A stretch of 64,000 nt of DNA from Norana najaformis. Lineage: Eukaryota; Annelida; Clitellata; Crassiclitellata; Hormogastridae. The stretch lies in contig OZ029914.1 of the NCBI GenBank assembly GCA_964023275.1, positions 15,598,308 to 15,662,307 of the forward strand, in the 5' to 3' direction. Of this stretch, positions 9,991-64,000 are shown one piece after another. The first letter of the stretch is position 1, and every line of letters starts with the position of its first letter. The translations under genes were made by a program, and so were the position numbers. The notes below the pieces were generated by a model, which saw nothing but the letters and a program-made list of their open reading frames with translations, was not told the origin of the DNA and did no database searches.

Positions 9991-11320
9991 AGATAATGAA
10001 AATCTCACCTTCCCTCGGATCAAACTAGATTCAAGCAACAGCGCAAACTTGTTTCATTTTCAAATTGTGCAGATTTAATACACAAACGCATGTAATTATT
10101 GTGAAAGCCAAGTCCAAATATTGTGGGCATGAATGGTGGAAAATAAGTATTGGATGCGTCCTATGATCAATGTCATGGACGTGTTTATACCATATTCGCA
10201 TGCCGAGCGTCGAGCGAAGTGGTATTGCTAGACGGCTACAGAAGTCTTGAGTTAATTACTTCTTATGTCGGTGCTAAGACTTTTGATGTTATAAAAGTGA
10301 CACACAAAAATTGCACTTGCAACAGCAAAACCTAACAAAACAAGATAGGAAGTGATATGCATTGCAACTAGTAAGGATCCGAAAATCATATAATTATAAC
10401 TTCGAGTAGAATAGATGTTCGTATCCGTGAACAGCCTGCCAACACGTCATTTAGGAAGCCTTATTATCTGACTCTGATGAAAATGGGTCCTATGTACTCG
10501 CTTTCGTCGTACGTGTGAGCGCCGTGCCCTTGCAATGGACTCACCCTTACATTTACAGTATTGTAGTGTTTTGATAATAATTTCTTGCTTACTGCATCTT
10601 GATGTACATTTATTTAACGCCGTTTTTGTAAAATGCATTGTATTAGTCGAAGTGTCGCTTCTAAGCAAATTATATTCAACTGAATCAAGCATAGAAAACC
10701 AATTATAAGAAAGGGACATAAAGAAAGATTAAAACTTTGACCCATCACAGATAGACAATGACTAACTATGGATGTAGCAAGGCGGTTTGCGAGTTGTGTT
10801 CAATTACTGTTATAGAGACGTCCGCATTTTGGATCAGGCTGTTTGGAGTAGTGTTCTGAGCACAGAGGACATTATAATTATAGTCCTCAGGCTGTTCGGT
10901 CCTCTAGGGGCACTGTGGCCAAGTCCATCGTCACACATGACACTTCAGGCAGAAGACAAGACAGTCTGGCGAATGGCAATGCGAGAGGCCTTATCGACTT
11001 AAAATCATTGTTTAGATAATACGCAAGTAGGCCTATCTGCCGAAGGCCTAGCTTCTTTGACTAAGGCTGACACGAAAACTCCGACCTTGTTTGAAAAGTT
11101 TAAAAACTCGCAACATGTCCTGGGTAGGCTGCGTTTCCATTTTTTGTAAGGCATGAACCTTTGTCACTAGATTACTCGCTTGGGCGCTCAGCCAGCGGGC
11201 AGATTATGTGCATGACAACAAATCAGGTACTATCACAACATATATATCTCTGTCTCTCAGACTGTTGATGTCTCCGTTTGACTCTGTCTGTCTTTCTCTG
11301 TCTCTTTCTCTAACCCTACG
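9991..11320. other. Non-coding part of copy A
   Basis: Conserved with 52520-53670 in copy B but with no domain that I recognise. Short frames at 10150-10335, 10447-10719 (minus) and 10787-11002 are broken or not conserved between copies. Confidence 0.4.
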
Positions 11321-11556
11321 CATACATACATATATACACACATACATGCATGCATTCATACATATGTATATACATACATACATACACACATACATATATA
11401 CACACATACATACATACACACATGCATACACACATACATGCATACATACATACACGAATACATGCATACATACAAACATACATACATAAACACAAATATG
11501 CATACAAACATACACACAACCATACATATATGCATACATACATACGTACATACATA
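11321..11556. repeat. (CATA)n microsatellite, copy A
   Basis: Long imperfect CATACATA array with CACA and CATG variants. The equivalent array in copy B (53671-53798) is about half as long, so the tract has changed length since duplication. Confidence 0.9.
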
Positions 11557-11629
11557 ATCGCATTCGTAATCATAAAATCGAGATTTCTACAGCGCCGAAA
11601 GAAAATTAGGTCGCGGAAACAAGCTTATT

Positions 11630-11960
11630 CACAGGCGCTCAGTCAAAACAAAATCGATAGGCAGTAAGGGTTCGGTTTGAGGTCATGATCCAAGAGTCAG
11701 GCAGGCAGACTGTCAGACCGCTACGGTGGATGGTGTTTGGAAGTGGCGTGGAAAGAGAGATAAGGGGAAAAGAAAGAAGCAGGGTAGGATTTGGGGAAGA
11801 GGAGTGTTTCCAGTTTTGAGTGAAGGATCTGCATAGAGAATGCAAAGAGTGAAGTTTGTAGAGCTCGTATGATGGGTCAGATAATTGTCGTAATTCTGGC
11901 GCGAGTTTATTCCAGAGGGGTGGATGTATAACGGCCAGAGCCACAATGCGGACTCATTTA
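11630..11960 (-). mobile_element. LINE ORF2 C-terminal end, copy A
   Basis: The minus-strand frame has the PPLWNKLAPELRQ-type tail found at the C-terminus of CR1/Jockey-like reverse-transcriptase proteins, where a PxLWNxLP motif precedes short Ser-rich sequence. No catalytic part is attached. The same piece occurs at 53855-54130. Confidence 0.6.
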
Positions 11961-43199: not shown

Positions 43200-44500
43200 T
43201 ACTTACCGGCATAAATATATGTTTAACGAATGATTAGTTTATATGTAGATATTATCTTTATGTTTTTTGTATAGTGTTTTTATAGGTACAGACCGCGACC
43301 GTTACTGTAGATTACAATGTTTGAAAAAGTTATCGGCCTATGTAAGAAATGAAATCCGATAGGCCTAAATGCAGACTTTAACTCATGATGTGAAATCCAA
43401 AGTACAAAGTTGTGCAAAGTTCGAAACTCGAGCAGAGGGACGGAGACGCATTGCAAACGTGCATTAAATCAATTTGACCTAAATAAATGGATGCCTGTCA
43501 ACGTGCCAATATATTGACTTGCGAGGTATAAAATTCGATGTTCGAGGTTATTAGAATATGGTGCAAGGCAAGAGTGGAAGCATATTGAACAGAAGAGTTT
43601 TTTCCTCATTTTTGGTTTTATTCTAACTTAGTAATACTACAAGATGAAATTTAGTGTTAAGATTAACTTATAAGTTGGATTTTCTCGTACGAAAATCCGA
43701 AAAATCCATTTCGGATCGCACGAATGGCCTTTTCGAGTAAATTGTTTCTAGTAATTGGCAGAAAACTGTTAATAGAACTTTTACCAATATTGGTTCTCTG
43801 TGATGTATAATGAAACAATTGAAGTTATAATCTGTTCTACGGCGTCCTATGGCAAAATACACTTTGTTATTTCAGTGCAAAATGCCTTCACCCTTGAAGG
43901 ATACTATATATTATTATATCTGTTATACATACTATGAATAATTATTGTAATAGGCCTACATATACACGAATTCAAGAGTTTTGCCACTGATCTCTTACGA
44001 GTTAATATACGTGTTGACCTGTTTAGTTACATCGATATACGCGTAAATCACGGCGTCTTTGTACAACAGGATCCCAGTTTGCATTTCGAATAATTTTCCT
44101 CTGTGAAAATATTTCTGGGTAGGTCGGTACAAGGCATCCTTAAATGGCATTGCACCTGTTTAATTTAAGTGGGCAACGATGGTGAAAGATCTCATCCGAT
44201 GAATTCAATGATAATTCACAGCTCAACGAATTTTAAAATAGGCTTTTAAACTAATTTTTGGGGTGCTGAATTCAAATATGACCAAAATATCCTGAAGGAC
44301 GAAACATATTTTGTAATAGGCCTAATTCTTTAACTAACATAAATAAAATACAAGTGTCCGAATAATTAAAATTATAATTTTTTCATGAAATTGCATTTAT
44401 TTTCATCATATTTTTTCTAACATCATGTTACAGACTATTTCAAAGTTAACTAACATACATTTCCAATAGCAACCATAAAAAGCATTTGAAAAAACATCGA
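43200..44500. other. No gene seen
   Basis: AT-rich sequence with short non-conserved frames. Nothing is recognised over about 1.3 kb. Confidence 0.4.
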
Positions 44501-44514
44501 ATTTTCGTTTACAC

Positions 44515-45604
44515 TTGGAAGCTGTTCATTTCTTCCTTTTACGCGTTGAGGTGTCTTCCCTCTGCAAAAACCAACAGTAATCGCTCATCATGGCTGGATC
44601 CCATCTGCCTTGGTATCTTTCCTCCGTGGTTCGAATAATCTAGTAAAATCTTTCACCCTGCTCATCGCTGACTGTGCCTAGGTTCTCTGGAAAGAAGTCA
44701 AGACGCGAATGCTAAAGTGGATCTTTAAAGACATCCCGCAGCCAAGAATTTCGTAGTTCATGAGAAAATCTTGAATGAGCTGACGGTAGTTTTCTTCTTT
44801 ATGATTCCTCAGAAAATCCTTGACCATTGACGTGAATGATTTCCATGCAGGGCGCTCCTTAAGAATCAATTTTTCTTCAGAGTCAGCATCATTCAGTAGC
44901 TTCCTAATCTGGGGATCAGTAAAGATGCCTTCTTGGAGTGTAGCGTTACTTAGTTTGGAAAATTTTCCTTTTAAATAAAAAACCCATCGCTGGTTATGTC
45001 CATAGCCTTGACAAAGTTCTTCAAAAGACCAAGTTTGATATATAATGGCGGAAGCACAACATTGGAAGGGTCAAATAAAGGCTTATTCTTCACGTTGCTC
45101 TTTCCATGAATGAAGTCATCTCTCTTGGACCAGTCCTTTGTTAAGTAGTGTTTCTCTCTGGCCCTACTGTCCCACAAAATCAGAAAACAGGAAAACTGTG
45201 AAGCCACCTTGAGGCCGAAGCAGCAGGGCAATAACTTTCAAATTACCATACATTTGCTAAATGTCCTGGTCGTACTTTATAGCCGTGAGTATTTTTTCCA
45301 TTTTTGCATCTCATCCTTTCATAGGTTTCTTTCATTCCCACAGAATGTGACACTGGGACAGATGACTTTTGCTTTCCTTTATGCAGAAGTACAGCTTTTA
45401 AACTGAACTTTGATGAGTCTATGAATAGACGCCATTCCTTCGGGTTGTGAGTTGCTCCATTTCTTTCATCACGCCCAAAATATCCTTGGTGAAGCACAAA
45501 CATACTTGCATGTTGTAAACTGAAGACAGAGCCTCATTTCTTTCTTTAAATAATGATATTTTTGTATCCTTGGCTAGAAGATTCCATTTTTGAAGTCTTG
45601 AACC
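44515..45604 (-). pseudogene. Decayed relative of the 565-residue transposase-like protein
   Basis: Minus-strand fragments align in order with residues from about 204 to 547 of the intact protein at 61779-63476: LQKWNLLA at the start, NPKEWRLFIDSSKFSLKAVLL, LWDSRAREKHYLTKDWS, VLPPLYIKLGLLKNFVKAMD, WKSFTSMVKDFLRNHKEENY, GCGMSLKIHF, and RYQGRWDPAMMSDYCW at the end. Frames shift several times. The N-terminal Cys/His region and both terminal repeats are absent. At 45604 the sequence passes directly into GPCR duplicate III. Confidence 0.8.
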
Positions 45605-46340
45605 TAAAAGTTAAGAATGATAAAAATAACAAACGGGCCTATGACACAGAGGACTAGATAGAACGAGATAGTATACATGACTAATCCCACATGCACATTG
45701 GAGTAATGTTCGAGACAACTGTCATATTGTTCTGCCAGCGATCGGATTTGCATTTGCCAGATTTACCACAAGTTCACTATCTGTTGGAACAAAGAAGATG
45801 TGCTGAATAAAACGGTTACAATGAACAGCACGAGAAAAGTCAACTACATCCGACGCAGACTTCTCCAACTGGATTTCATCGGTTTACAGATTGCTAGATA
45901 GCGATCGATGGTTAAGAGGATCACAGTCCAAATGGTAAGAGAATGAGTAACAGATAATATGGTTGTGTGAAGAATTCTCATGAAAGGATTAACTCCCATA
46001 GTTGTTTCCACATTCCTATATGACTTAAGCCACTGAGCTCCGACCGACACAAAAAGCAGATAAAATACAAGAACGCTATTGTCGACAACAGCCAAGGCTT
46101 TCAGGAGCCAAATGATGGTGCGCCCTTTGTCAGGGTCACGTTTCAGAACCAGAATTGTTAGGCAGTTGCCCAGAAACCCGAAGACACAGAGAATAAAAAC
46201 TATGTAACCACTAAAAATGACATAACTGTATTGGCCTATTTCGATATTGAGAGCCGATGTGCTATTCTCGGAGTCGACTTTCAATTGTCGTATCTAAGGT
46301 GTCGAGTACTGTGTCCATCAATTTTGTCCAGCTGTTGATT
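45605..46340 (-). pseudogene. Rhodopsin-like GPCR, duplicate III
   Basis: The best of the three copies. An open frame at 46284-45844 encodes an N-terminus with an NST glycosylation-type site, TM1 with FGFLGNCLTILVLKRD, intracellular loop 1, TM2 (LLKALAVVDNSVLVFYLL), TM3 and LLTIDRYLAICKP (DRY). It then meets a stop, and broken frames continue through TM4-TM5 (VIGPFVIFIILNF) to 45605, where transposase sequence takes over. TM6-TM7 are missing, so no functional seven-helix receptor can be made. Confidence 0.75.
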
Positions 46341-52520: not shown

Positions 52521-53670
52521 CGTGTTTATACCAGATTCGCACACGGAGCGTGGAGCGAAGTGAAATGGATAGACGGCTACAGAAGTCATAAGTTAATTAC
52601 ATTACTTCTTATGTCGGTGCTAAGGCCTTTGGTGTTATAAAAGTGGCATAAAAATTGCACTTGGAACAGCAAAACCTTCTAACAAAACAAGAACGGAAGT
52701 GATTTGCATTGCTACTAGTAAGGATCCCGAAGATCTTATAATTATAACTTCGAGTAAAATGGCTTTTCGTATCTGTGGATTTGGAGTTAACAGGTCACTT
52801 AGAAAACCCTATTATCTGACTCTGCTGGAAAATGGATCCCATGTACTCGCTTTCGTCGTAGGTATCAGCGCCGTTCCTCTGCAATGGACAGACCATACAT
52901 TTACAATACATGTCACCAGTATTCTAGTGTTTGATATTAATTTCTTGCTTACAGCATTTTGTTGTACATTTATTTAGCGCCGTTTTTGTAAAATACAGTG
53001 TATTAATCGAAGTGTGGCTTCTAAGCAAACTATTTTCCATTGATTCAAGCATCGAAAACCGATTACAAGAAAAAGACATAAAGATTGATAAAAACAGAGA
53101 TAGACATCAGAGATAGATAATGACTAACTATGCGTGTAGCAATGCAGTTTGCGAGTTGTGCTCAATTACTATTATAAAGACTTCCGCATTATGGATCAGG
53201 CAGTTCGGGGTGGTGTTCTGATCACAGCAAATATTATAATTATAGTCCTTAGACTGTAGGGCCACTGAGGCCAAGTCCATCGTCGCACATGAGACCCCAG
53301 GTAAAAGACAAGATAGTCTGGCGAATGGCGATGCGAGAGGCCTTATCGACTTAAAATCACTGCTTAGATAATACGCAAGTAGGCCTATCTGCCGAAGGCC
53401 TAGCTTCCCTGACTAAGGCTGACACGAAAACTCTGACCTGTCTGTAAGGTTTAAAAGCTCGCAACATGTCCTGGGTAGGCCGCGTTTCTATTTTTTGTAA
53501 GGCATGAACCTTTGCCACTAGATTACTGGCTTTGGCGCTCAGCCAGCGGGCAGATTATGTGCATAATAACATCTCAGATACTATCTTTGTCTCCATATCT
53601 ATCTCTGTCCTTCGGACTGTTGATCTCTGTTTGACTCTGTCTTTTTCTCTGTCTCTGTCTCTCTAGCCCT

Positions 53671-53798
53671 ACACATACATACATACATACACATACATAC
53701 ATACACATACATACAAACATACATACACACATACATACAAACATACATACACACATACATACTTGCCTACACACATACATACATACATACACACATTA
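53671..53798. repeat. (CATA)n microsatellite, copy B
   Basis: Shorter counterpart of 11321-11556. Confidence 0.9.
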
Positions 53799-53854
53799 TC
53801 GTAATCGTAAAATCGAGATTTCTACAGCGTCGCGGAAACAAGTTTATTCACAGG

Positions 53855-54130
53855 CGCTCAGTCAGAACAAAATCGATAGGCAGTAAGAGTTCGGTTTGAG
53901 GTCATGATCCAAGAGTCAGGCAGGCAGATGATCAGACCGCTACGGTGGATGGTGTTTGCAAGTGGAGTGGAAAGAGAGATTAGGGGAAGAGGAAATTCAG
54001 GGTAGGATTTGTGGAAGAGGAGTTTGTCCAGTTTTGAGTAAAGGACTTTCATAGAGATTGCAAGGGTGAAGTGTTGGTGAGTTCGTAAGATGGGCTAGAT
54101 AATTGTCTTAATTCTGGGAGTTTATTCCAG
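53855..54130 (-). mobile_element. LINE ORF2 C-terminal end, copy B
   Basis: Counterpart of 11630-11960, more broken; the PLISLSTPLANTIHRSGL tail remains. Confidence 0.55.
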
Positions 54131-60754: not shown

Positions 60755-61520
60755 CTACTAGTACGGATTTGACTGAGGTGATAGTAACAATTTCGACAGA
60801 CAGTTTACGTGATTATGAAGCGTGAGCTCTTGGTCAAGAATAATGCCCAGGTCTCGCACAGAGGTGGAGAATGTGATGTCGGGAAAAGATCAACGAAGGG
60901 TAGGAAAATCAATCTTGGAGATTTGAACACGACCACCAAACCAAATAAATTGTCTTTTTAGAATTCAACTGAAGACGGTTTGAGGACATCCTCTGAGGCT
61001 TACATGATCTGATCAACTAAGGCAGCAGTTGCAGTAGCTGTACCATAGACGTAGGCCTGGGTATTATCAGCAAATTGATGGGAGATGACCCCTTCTGCGG
61101 AAAGGACAGCACCCAGGTCAGTCGTATATAGAATATAAAATAGCGGAGATAAGACGGAATCCTGCGGGAGTGCAAAGAGTATTATGGACCAGGAAGAAAG
61201 CGTTGATCCAAATATGACAGCATGTCAGCGGACAAAGAGAAAAGTGCAGATCCAGCTAAGTGAAAGTCCCGAGATGCCAAGGGAGGTTTCCAGACGCCGT
61301 AGAAGAATAGAGTGATCTACAGTATCAAAAACTGCACTGAAATCAAAAAGAGCAAGTTATGTAACATGATTACGATCAAAGGCTCCAAACACATTAGTGA
61401 GTAGGCGCGCATTAAGTGTCTCCGTGGAATGAAATCGACGGAAACCTGACTGGTGAGGGGGTAATACAGAGTTAGATTCAAAATAAGACGTAATTTTTAG
61501 AACAGACTACTCTTTCAACC
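60755..61520 (-). mobile_element. CR1/Jockey-like LINE relic, copy B
   Basis: Counterpart of 19190-19910 with the 3' portion deleted. Translation on the minus strand still shows the SAVFDTVDHSILLRRLE-like block near 61300 with different lesions from copy A. Confidence 0.7.
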
Positions 61521-61778
61521 ATTTTCGATAGGTAAGCGTCTCAAATCATCTCAGGTTTGAAATCGATAGGTAACACTGGACAACAAATTTTTACAAAAGT
61601 CATGTTACTGAAATGAAATTAGTCAGTTCTTATCAATTTGTATGTGCTGAACACGAATATGACAGTGAAAATGCCGAATTGGCTCTAGTTTTTTTTGTGA
61701 TCTGAAATGAAATAATTTTATATCGCACAATGCATGCCAATAGTGATACACTTACAGTTAATATTTGTAAAAACCAGG

Positions 61779-63476
61779 TCATAGACTAGTTCTTAGATTT
61801 TTTGCCTGTCTCTTGTACAGCTGTTCGGGAGCATCTCTGCGGAGTGTCCAGCAGTAGTCAGCCAACATTGTAGTGGACCATTTTCCCTGGTACCTTTGCT
61901 CCATTGTTGCGATATCTTGATGAAAACGTTCGCCATGTTCGTCACTAACCATACCACAGTTGTTAGGGAAGAAATCCAGATGGGAATGAAGGAAATGCAT
62001 CGTCAGAGACATATTGCAGCGAAATTTCTGGTACTCCTTGAGCATGTCTTCTACTAGTTCCTTGTAGTTTTCTGCCCTAACATTCCCCAGAAAGTCTGTA
62101 GACACTAGACGAAAAGCATTCCATGCTTGTTTCGCATCACCCTCCAGCAAGTTGTTGAAGCGGTCATCTTTGAAGAGTTCTCTAATCTGAGGACCCACAA
62201 AAACTCCCTCTTTAATCTTTGCTTCGCTGAGTCGAGGGAATTTTTCATGCAGGTATCGGAAAGCTGGCGAAGTGCGGTCCATGGCTTTCACGAAGTTCTT
62301 CACCAAACCTAGTTTGATGTGAAGGGGTGGTAGTAGGATTTTGTGAGCCTCGACCAGAGCTGGGTGCTGAATATTCTTCTGTCCAACTGCCATGTTTTGT
62401 CTGGGAGTCCATTCCTTCCGCACGTAGTGCAACTCTCTTGCTCGGCTATCCCACTCACACAAGAAACACATATATTTTGTATATCCTTGCTGCAGTCCCA
62501 TTAAAATGGCAACTACCTTCAAATCACCACACAGGTGCCATTTGTACCTGTTATAGTCAATGGAATGCAGTAGCTGTTTTAGGTTATCGTATGTCTCTTT
62601 CAAGTGGACAGCATGCGCTAATGGAATAGATGAAAGACGGTTTCCATTGTGCAAAAGCACAGCCTTAAGACTCAGTGTTGAAGAGTCTACAAAGAGTCTC
62701 CATTCTTGTGGGTCATGAGTGATCTGTAAGGCATTCATGAGGTCGTCAATATTGGAACAGAATACCAGATTACCTTCCTTCATAAAGAAAGGTTCCAACT
62801 GCTGATGGCGCTTTCTATATGAAGTAATTGTGACATCTTCTTCTAGAAGATTCCATTGTTGGAGTCTTGATCCTAGCAATTCTGCCTTGTTTTTGGATAA
62901 GTCCAAATCACGAACAAGGTCATTTAGTTCTTCTTGTGTTCTGCTGTGTGGGGTTGATGATGCACCACAGTGAAAATCGGGATCACTGCACGCTGACGGA
63001 CCAGGAGAAGAACATGTCGGCTCACCCTTGTCCTCATCAGATGAATCAAGGAAAATATATTCTGCTGGAGGTTCTGGAATAGGAAGTCCATCACCATGTG
63101 GAACTGGTCTCAATGCTGACGGAATGTTTGGGTAGACTATTGTCGACTTCTTTTGCTTCGTTATTCCACCGGAAAGAGGAGGAACCAAGCAGAAGTAACA
63201 GTCATCTACGTGGTTGCTTTGCTCTCTCCACACCATGGGAACTGCAAACGGCATTGATGGTCTTTTGCCATTCAACCACTGTGAAAGCTGTGTTGTACAT
63301 GTAGCACAGCATATATGCGGGGCCCATGGCTTGTCTTGGTCACCAACCTTGCATTCGAAGTAAGCATGATATGCCTTCTTGACTTGATAAGTGATACTTT
63401 TCTTCTGGTTGGCAAATGTCACTTCCCCACAAATGTAACAAAAGTTGTCCACAGTATTTACGCACTTCCGAGGCAT
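61779..63476 (-). CDS. Putative transposase with Cys/His N-terminus and RNase H-like D/D/E candidate residues
   Basis: An uninterrupted 565-codon frame, the longest in the minus half of the window. Residues 5-96 form a Cys/His cluster (C5, C13, C16, C42, H54, C56, C57, C60, C93, C96) that probably binds zinc and DNA. Residues 97-180 are Pro/Ser/acidic and likely disordered. From 255 on the pattern fits a transposase catalytic fold: D264 in EWRLFVDSS followed by LKAVLLHNG, D318 in LCGDLKVVAILMGL followed by CFLC (337-340), a long helical insertion, then DEHGERFHQD with E516 as third acid, and KWSTTMLADYCW. The start MPRKCVN lies about 115 bp from a TATA-like box. No introns are evident. I recall similar uncharacterised proteins across invertebrate genomes; a transposase role is inferred here from the TIRs. 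Alternatives are a passenger gene or a domesticated relative. Confidence 0.75.
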   Translation of the reverse strand: MPRKCVNTVDNFCYICGEVTFANQKKSITYQVKKAYHAYFECKVGDQDKPWAPHICCATCTTQLSQWLNGKRPSMPFAVPMVWREQSNHVDDCYFCLVPPLSGGITKQKKSTIVYPNIPSALRPVPHGDGLPIPEPPAEYIFLDSSDEDKGEPTCSSPGPSACSDPDFHCGASSTPHSRTQEELNDLVRDLDLSKNKAELLGSRLQQWNLLEEDVTITSYRKRHQQLEPFFMKEGNLVFCSNIDDLMNALQITHDPQEWRLFVDSSTLSLKAVLLHNGNRLSSIPLAHAVHLKETYDNLKQLLHSIDYNRYKWHLCGDLKVVAILMGLQQGYTKYMCFLCEWDSRARELHYVRKEWTPRQNMAVGQKNIQHPALVEAHKILLPPLHIKLGLVKNFVKAMDRTSPAFRYLHEKFPRLSEAKIKEGVFVGPQIRELFKDDRFNNLLEGDAKQAWNAFRLVSTDFLGNVRAENYKELVEDMLKEYQKFRCNMSLTMHFLHSHLDFFPNNCGMVSDEHGERFHQDIATMEQRYQGKWSTTMLADYCWTLRRDAPEQLYKRQAKNLRTSL

Positions 63477-63590
63477 TACTGTTCTGTATTGTATCTAAAT
63501 GGATAAAGTAATAATAGTTTTATAAAACAGTAACTTAAACTGTCTCGCACAAAGTCTGTAATATTGTAAATGCTCAACCGTTCCGACTCG

Positions 63591-63600
63591 CTTTATATAG
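63591..63600 (-). promoter_or_regulatory. TATA-like box of the transposon gene
   Basis: CTATATAAAG on the minus strand, 115-124 bp upstream of the ATG, placed as expected for a core promoter with a short leader. Confidence 0.5.
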
Positions 63601-63604
63601 TACA

Positions 63605-63630
63605 CTGCTGACGTCATCTTACGTCAGCAG
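63605..63630. promoter_or_regulatory. Inverted repeat containing a CRE-like TGACGTCA
   Basis: CTGCTGACGT, six bases, ACGTCAGCAG: perfect 10-bp arms just upstream of the TATA-like box. The left arm includes the palindrome TGACGTCA (63609-63616), the binding sequence of CREB/ATF-type bZIP factors. It could act as an enhancer of the transposon gene or as a site for its own protein. Confidence 0.45.
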
Positions 63631-63927
63631 CCGACTGGCTGTAGTTTTACATTGCATCAGAAAATGACGTAATCAACTGTGCATGATGTGTCCATGATGG
63701 GATTATGCAATGAGGTGGAATATTACATCATTCTAGACTTATTTAGGATATTGTCGCAGTCCTACTGCATAAATTTACATGGTGAAACATAAAAAATGAA
63801 CTATATGAAATATTTTCAAAACGAGAGCCAATAAAAAATTTTTATGGTTATATTCGTGTTCAGCACACCAAGATGCTACACATTAGGGCCTTTTCCAGTC
63901 AGTAACGATTTCTATGTTGACCAGTGT

Positions 63928-64000
63928 ATAATTAGCCATGATAGCAGGATATAGGTCAAGTACGTGTTGTTACATTGATTGACAAACCGAAATCCGAGCA
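63928..64000. repeat. Copy B of the segmental duplication, continuation
   Basis: AGCCATGATAGCAGGATATAGGTCAAGTAC matches 19973-20002, and the next tract (TTACATTGATTGACAAACCGAAA) matches 20721-20742, skipping 0.7 kb of copy A. Confidence 0.75.

Follow-up and report, generated by a model that had tools for sequence, protein, structure and literature searches.

The window analyzed here, a 64,000-nucleotide stretch of the genome of the annelid Norana najaformis (assembly GCA_964023275.1, contig OZ029914.1, positions 15,598,308 to 15,662,307), contains a complete DNA transposon, which we named family A. The element occupies window positions 61574-63926 (2353 bp), carries its gene on the minus strand and is, with a probability that we put at about 0.87, an autonomous cut-and-paste transposon of the Chapaev3 group (Chapaev superfamily; CMC/Transib-type, RAG1-related) that has recently multiplied. 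An earlier note, made from the letters of the window, had proposed a transposon at 61573-63927 that encodes an orphan transposase. The transposase is borne out by the ends of the element, its target-site duplications (TSDs), its many near-identical copies and its conserved motifs; the family is no orphan, as its traits place it in a named group, Chapaev3.

In a protein search of the source genome (608 Mb, 17 contigs), 77 matches were scored out of 6552 first-look candidates. Among these best 77, the window copy stands at 100% identity and the other 76 at 98-99%, and 65 of the 77 are free of internal stops. Forty of the 76 (ranks 2-43, minus two with stops) were fetched with their flanks, a sample biased to intact and similar copies, which affects copy numbers, truncation rates and the ratio of nonsynonymous to synonymous polymorphism (pN/pS). 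Together with the window copy, 41 copies were examined. The edges of the element were fixed by their alignment: 29 copies, the window copy included, retain both ends and span positions 1-2353, beyond which the flanking DNA diverges. The completeness claimed in the earlier note stands, and its coordinates overshoot the element by one base at either end. The remaining 12 copies are partial (four had lost only 1-8 terminal bases) and were excluded from the TSD count. As the 32 near-full copies that were aligned differ from their consensus by a mean of only 0.28% (0.47% for the window copy), family A is the product of a recent burst of multiplication in this genome.

The termini of family A are CACTGG...CCAGTG. 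The left terminal inverted repeat (TIR), CACTGGACAACAAA, lies at 61574-61587 on the plus strand and the right one, CACTGGTCAACATA, at 63913-63926 on the minus strand, and these two element ends are the only mismatch-free matches to the TIR pattern in the window. When up to 2 mismatches were allowed, 12 matches were obtained against 5.9 expected from shuffling, a number reached in 4 of 100 shuffles. Inside the TIRs there are two subterminal blocks of 50 nt, at 61643-61692 (plus strand, core GTGCTGAACACGAATATGAC) and 63818-63867 (minus strand), which are 80% complementary to each other; the left block is perhaps a transposase-binding site. Both the inverted ends and the paired blocks had been pointed out before. 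The two 150-bp element ends align with a score of 42.5; when segments of the window were compared 800 times, no score exceeded 26.

Perfect 3-bp TSDs flank 19 of the 29 full copies, compared with 18% when flanks were mispaired between copies. Their sequences are TAA (8), TTA (6), AAA (2), ATA (1), TTC (1) and TTT (1), so that TWA (W represents A or T) accounts for 14 of the 19, and 13 of these 14 TWA sites are followed by a T. Duplications of 5, 6, 7 or 8 bp were found in none of the 29 full copies, and a 4-bp duplication in one. A paralogous empty site could also be identified: the flanks of locus L033 match a continuous stretch at L004 that contains a single TTA, where L033 has TTA on each side of the element. 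The left junction of L033 reads TTA-TAT-ACTGG, with TAT in place of the element's initial base, perhaps as a repair scar.

A genome search with a 129-aa piece of a decayed relative in the window (family C, see below) turned up another family that is built in the same way, family B. Family B is abundant, and its protein is about 50% identical to that of family A (48.7% over 556 residues by BLAST, 51% in the alignment). Thirteen of 18 loci were aligned; the 3' end is kept in 12 of the 13 and is followed by TWA in all 12. Four upstream pieces start with TWA-CACAGG, and the same four copies all have matching 3-bp TWA duplications. The termini of family B are thus CACAGG/CCTGTG, and its two ends resemble each other at a score that only 3 of 300 shuffles reach. 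Because family B shows this design, inverted CAC ends recur with the protein at similar distances, a check that the earlier note had suggested and that here was carried out within one genome. A wider likeness between the 150-bp ends of families A and B was tried and rejected, the scores of the four end pairs being reached by 92, 166, 161 and 129 of 300 shuffles. The relative in the window, family C, lies at 44217-45610 on the minus strand (tblastn E 6e-39), with its left end, CACAGCTCAACGAATTTT, at 44217, a subterminal block, GTGCTGAATTCAAATATGAC, at 44263-44282 that resembles GTGCTGAACACGAATATGAC of family A, and broken pieces of the open reading frame (ORF) between 45610 and 44556. Its left end matches the right end of family A with a score above all 300 shuffles, and the left end of family A with a score that 21 of 300 shuffles reach. 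The match to the transposase ends at 45610, short of a G protein-coupled receptor-like ORF (Pfam 7tm_1, E 1.1e-7) at 45844-46293 on the minus strand. A further relative at locus L076, family D, is 52% identical and broken near its C-terminus.

As the earlier note had stated, family A contains a single intact ORF for 565 residues between its ends, running from 63476 to 61779 (minus strand, stop included). The codons of the proposed catalytic residues D264 (62685-62687), D318 (62523-62525) and E516 (61929-61931) are where that note had placed them; E516 itself could not be singled out, as E513 is at least as conserved. Nine rows of the alignment extend in frame over this site; position 513 is Glu in all nine and position 516 in eight, the decayed L049 having Gln in place of E516; the catalytic Glu, judged from the alignment, may be either. 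C337 and C340 (codons within 62457-62468), L385-H386, and H494 and H499 (codons within 61980-61997) are common to families A, B and D, which means that the C(2)C, LH and H(4)H motifs are all present. The N-terminal region (63189-63476, minus strand) is rich in Cys and His and is a candidate Chapa zinc domain, in which C13, C16, H54, C57, C60, H89, C93 and C96 are conserved in the same three families (residues 13-96). The earlier note had advised looking for an RNase H fold, and a core of this fold, similar to that of Transib/RAG1, is predicted for the protein: VIA-align, applied to Foldseek candidates, links the models to Transib/RAG1 with scores far above those of hAT or KDZ enzymes. In these structural alignments the identity to HzTransib is 12-14%.

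These features were compared with published descriptions of related transposons. Excerpts of PMC4079192 give CAC/GTG termini and 3-4 bp TSDs as hallmarks of Chapaev elements, and for Chapaev3 add TWA TSDs, with insertion between A and T, and the C(2)C, LH and H(4)H motifs; according to the same excerpts, Garfield measures 2289 bp and encodes a transposase of 556 aa, and most Chapaev3 transposases except Merrow and Garfield seem to have one exon. The parts of PMC4411706 that deal with the group place Chapaev3 with Transib and RAG1 and report a zinc-finger Chapa domain, and those of PMC12730594 describe Chapaev3 as a sublineage of Chapaev, within a wider clade having C(2)C and H(3-4)H motifs, CA..TG termini and 2-5 bp TSDs. 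Family A shares with the Chapaev3 elements Garfield, Merrow and Conan its length, a single transposase of about 560 aa, an N-terminus that is putatively zinc-rich, the three motifs, the CAC/GTG termini and the TWA TSD, and its testable traits fit the group apart from the base that precedes TWA. It differs from Garfield and Merrow in its single ORF, as opposed to two exons; from Transib, for which a passage of PMC4411706 gives a 5-bp TSD as typical, in its 3-bp TSDs (0/29 at 5 bp); and from the RAG1 systems in having one ORF and no RAG2 gene.

It is important to mention the points that weigh against this assignment. Membership in Chapaev3 is a probable assignment that rests on traits. Of the 14 family A sites with TWA, only 8 have an A immediately before it, where the published description says always, and five of the 19 perfect TSDs are not TWA. 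The TSD is absent or imperfect in 10 of the 29 full copies; one of these is the window copy, with TAA at 61571-61573 on the left and TAT, one mismatch away, at 63927-63929 on the right. Only CAC is surely common to the ends of families A and B, the rest being at chance level. The pN/pS among the 36 intact ORFs (36 of 40 loci) is 0.59, in copies that were picked for similarity. As for the fold, the models have a mean predicted local distance difference test (pLDDT) score of 57 and 58, the alignments behind them being shallow at 12 and 10 rows, Foldseek alone gave no match at E <= 0.001, with IS110-type recombinases as the best rows, and VIA-align re-examines Foldseek's candidates only.

These reservations leave some room for a separate, unnamed CMC/Transib lineage outside Chapaev3, for example near CNEST or Lanisha, in which the motifs and TSD would be kept by common descent; we regard this as unlikely. 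Excerpts of PMC12730594 count Lanisha in the same clade, and those of PMC12810828 describe unclassified animal transposases that form a CMC clade around CNEST, a Cryptococcus element that resembles family A in its CMC-type transposase and in a TIR starting with CAC. A separate lineage would also suit a protein for which no convincing Pfam or NCBIfam match exists: the scans of the 565-aa protein against both databases returned no family, and a Pfam scan of the 12-member set A2 returned one member at E 0.16 to an unrelated family, with HMMER filters that remove most matches above E 0.1. Sequence searches of the PDB stayed at chance level (best E 1.5 and 0.54), pattern scans of viral and genome contigs gave 7 and 17 matches with none confirmed, three phage records were matched at a best E of 3, and a literature search with six peptide strings found none of them. 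Nevertheless, the mostly TWA duplications, CACTGG ends and 2.35-kb length of family A are as in Chapaev3, whereas the excerpts of PMC12810828 give CNEST a TA TSD, CACGG ends and a length of about 7.2 kb.

A CACTA/EnSpm element with CACTG termini and a 3-bp TSD is still less probable, indeed very improbable. Such an element would have a precedent in CNIRT6, which is CACTG-ended and has a protein resembling CACTA transposases in the part of PMC12810828 that treats it, and CA..TG termini with 2-5 bp TSDs are common across the clade in the corresponding part of PMC12730594. However, Transposase_21 (PF02992) is absent from the Pfam matches of both the window protein and set A2 that pass the HMMER filters, most matches above E 0.1 being dropped, and the TWA preference and the size agree with Chapaev3; a genome-wide search for PF02992 was uninformative, as 0 of 14 control genomes matched. 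The earlier note's likeness to hAT or KDZ-type transposases can practically be set aside. hAT elements make 8-bp TSDs (5-7 bp in named subgroups), and the KDZ values are 8 bp for Zisupton and 4-8 bp for Cryptococcus KDZ2 and KDZ3, lengths at which family A yields nothing among the 29 full copies save the single 4-bp case, and Transib/RAG1 score far higher structurally.

Under the preferred Chapaev3 assignment, the 565-aa protein would be made from the element's own promoter, for which a TATA-box-like sequence, TATATAAA (63592-63599, minus strand), which precedes the ATG by about 115 bp, and three TGACGTMA sites upstream of this sequence (63609-63616, 63619-63626 and 63665-63672), similar to cAMP response elements (CRE), are putative components. 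The zinc-rich N-terminus and the core may bind the CAC termini and the subterminal blocks, and the DNA would be cut at CAC/GTG by a D-D-E RNase H-like site formed by D264, D318 and E516 or E513. A zinc site of the form C(2)C...H(4)H could hold this active site together; RAG1, too, has a zinc site. The excised element would then be inserted at TWA with a 3-bp stagger and so duplicate 3 bp. Hairpin chemistry is known for RAG, Transib and Hermes, and hairpins may likewise form on the flanks of family A, as in RAG/Transib. Family A is presumably active at present.

The two ends may not always be handled together. Among the 40 fetched loci there are eight whose main alignment stops short on the right, at positions 2103-2328, and in five of these (L010, L014, L016, L035 and L038) 14-57 bp of the left host flank are repeated at the break. 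The repeat abuts directly in four of the five; in L010 a 23-bp match is separated from the element by 3 bp and lies 10 bp past the break. The longest match in controls was 10 bp in 56 mispaired combinations and 9 bp in 32 loci that are not right-truncated. The left element end is exact or nearly so in these five loci and in L031, where a shorter flank repeat can be read by eye; L022 is right-short with no flank repeat, and in L018 the right end lies beyond an insertion of about 700 bp near element position 2125. Left losses among the fetched loci are at most 8 bases, in a sample that could reveal up to about 200 bp. A LINE-like (long interspersed nuclear element) origin of the shortened copies was dropped, because full copies have two inverted ends and short TSDs. 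We tentatively propose, as a possibility that we hold to be doubtful, that the right-truncated copies with flank repeats are single-end events. In one scheme only the right end would be cut, and the homologous chromosome, empty at this site, would serve to repair the break; in the other, an element already eroded on its right would be joined through its left end alone. Both would give rise to such flank repeats.

Some further observations were made on the copies and the window. Coarse first-look candidates numbered 1039 for the right-end 200 bp and 515 for the left-end 200 bp (40 each scored), an excess that may reflect right-end-rich derivatives. L036 and L037 (contig C10, about 7.175-7.199 Mb) lie in opposite orientation about 17 kb apart; their right flank is common (all 1062 bases compared, 99.9% identical) and their left flanks differ, an arrangement that is a transposon-bounded inverted duplication. 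A CATA-type microsatellite beside a dispersed repeat occurs at 11318-11855 and 53670-54076, and the dispersed repeat is also present at L048 and L068 and in sequence flanking L018 and L023. Beside the element, at 61000-61224 (minus strand), a reverse-transcriptase-like stretch was seen by eye and has no Pfam match.

Families A and B are new families of a known kind and open no new class. What the analysis adds is that a kind of protein with no convincing Pfam or NCBIfam match is tied to an element that is complete, has multiplied recently and belongs to the RAG1-related CMC/Transib kind. The many intact copies and the sister family in one genome make a compact test bed for cutting and joining by a single-protein relative of RAG1, and, if the single-end events are real, the copies of family A would document, in nature, how a RAG1-like transposase processes the two ends without coupling them.
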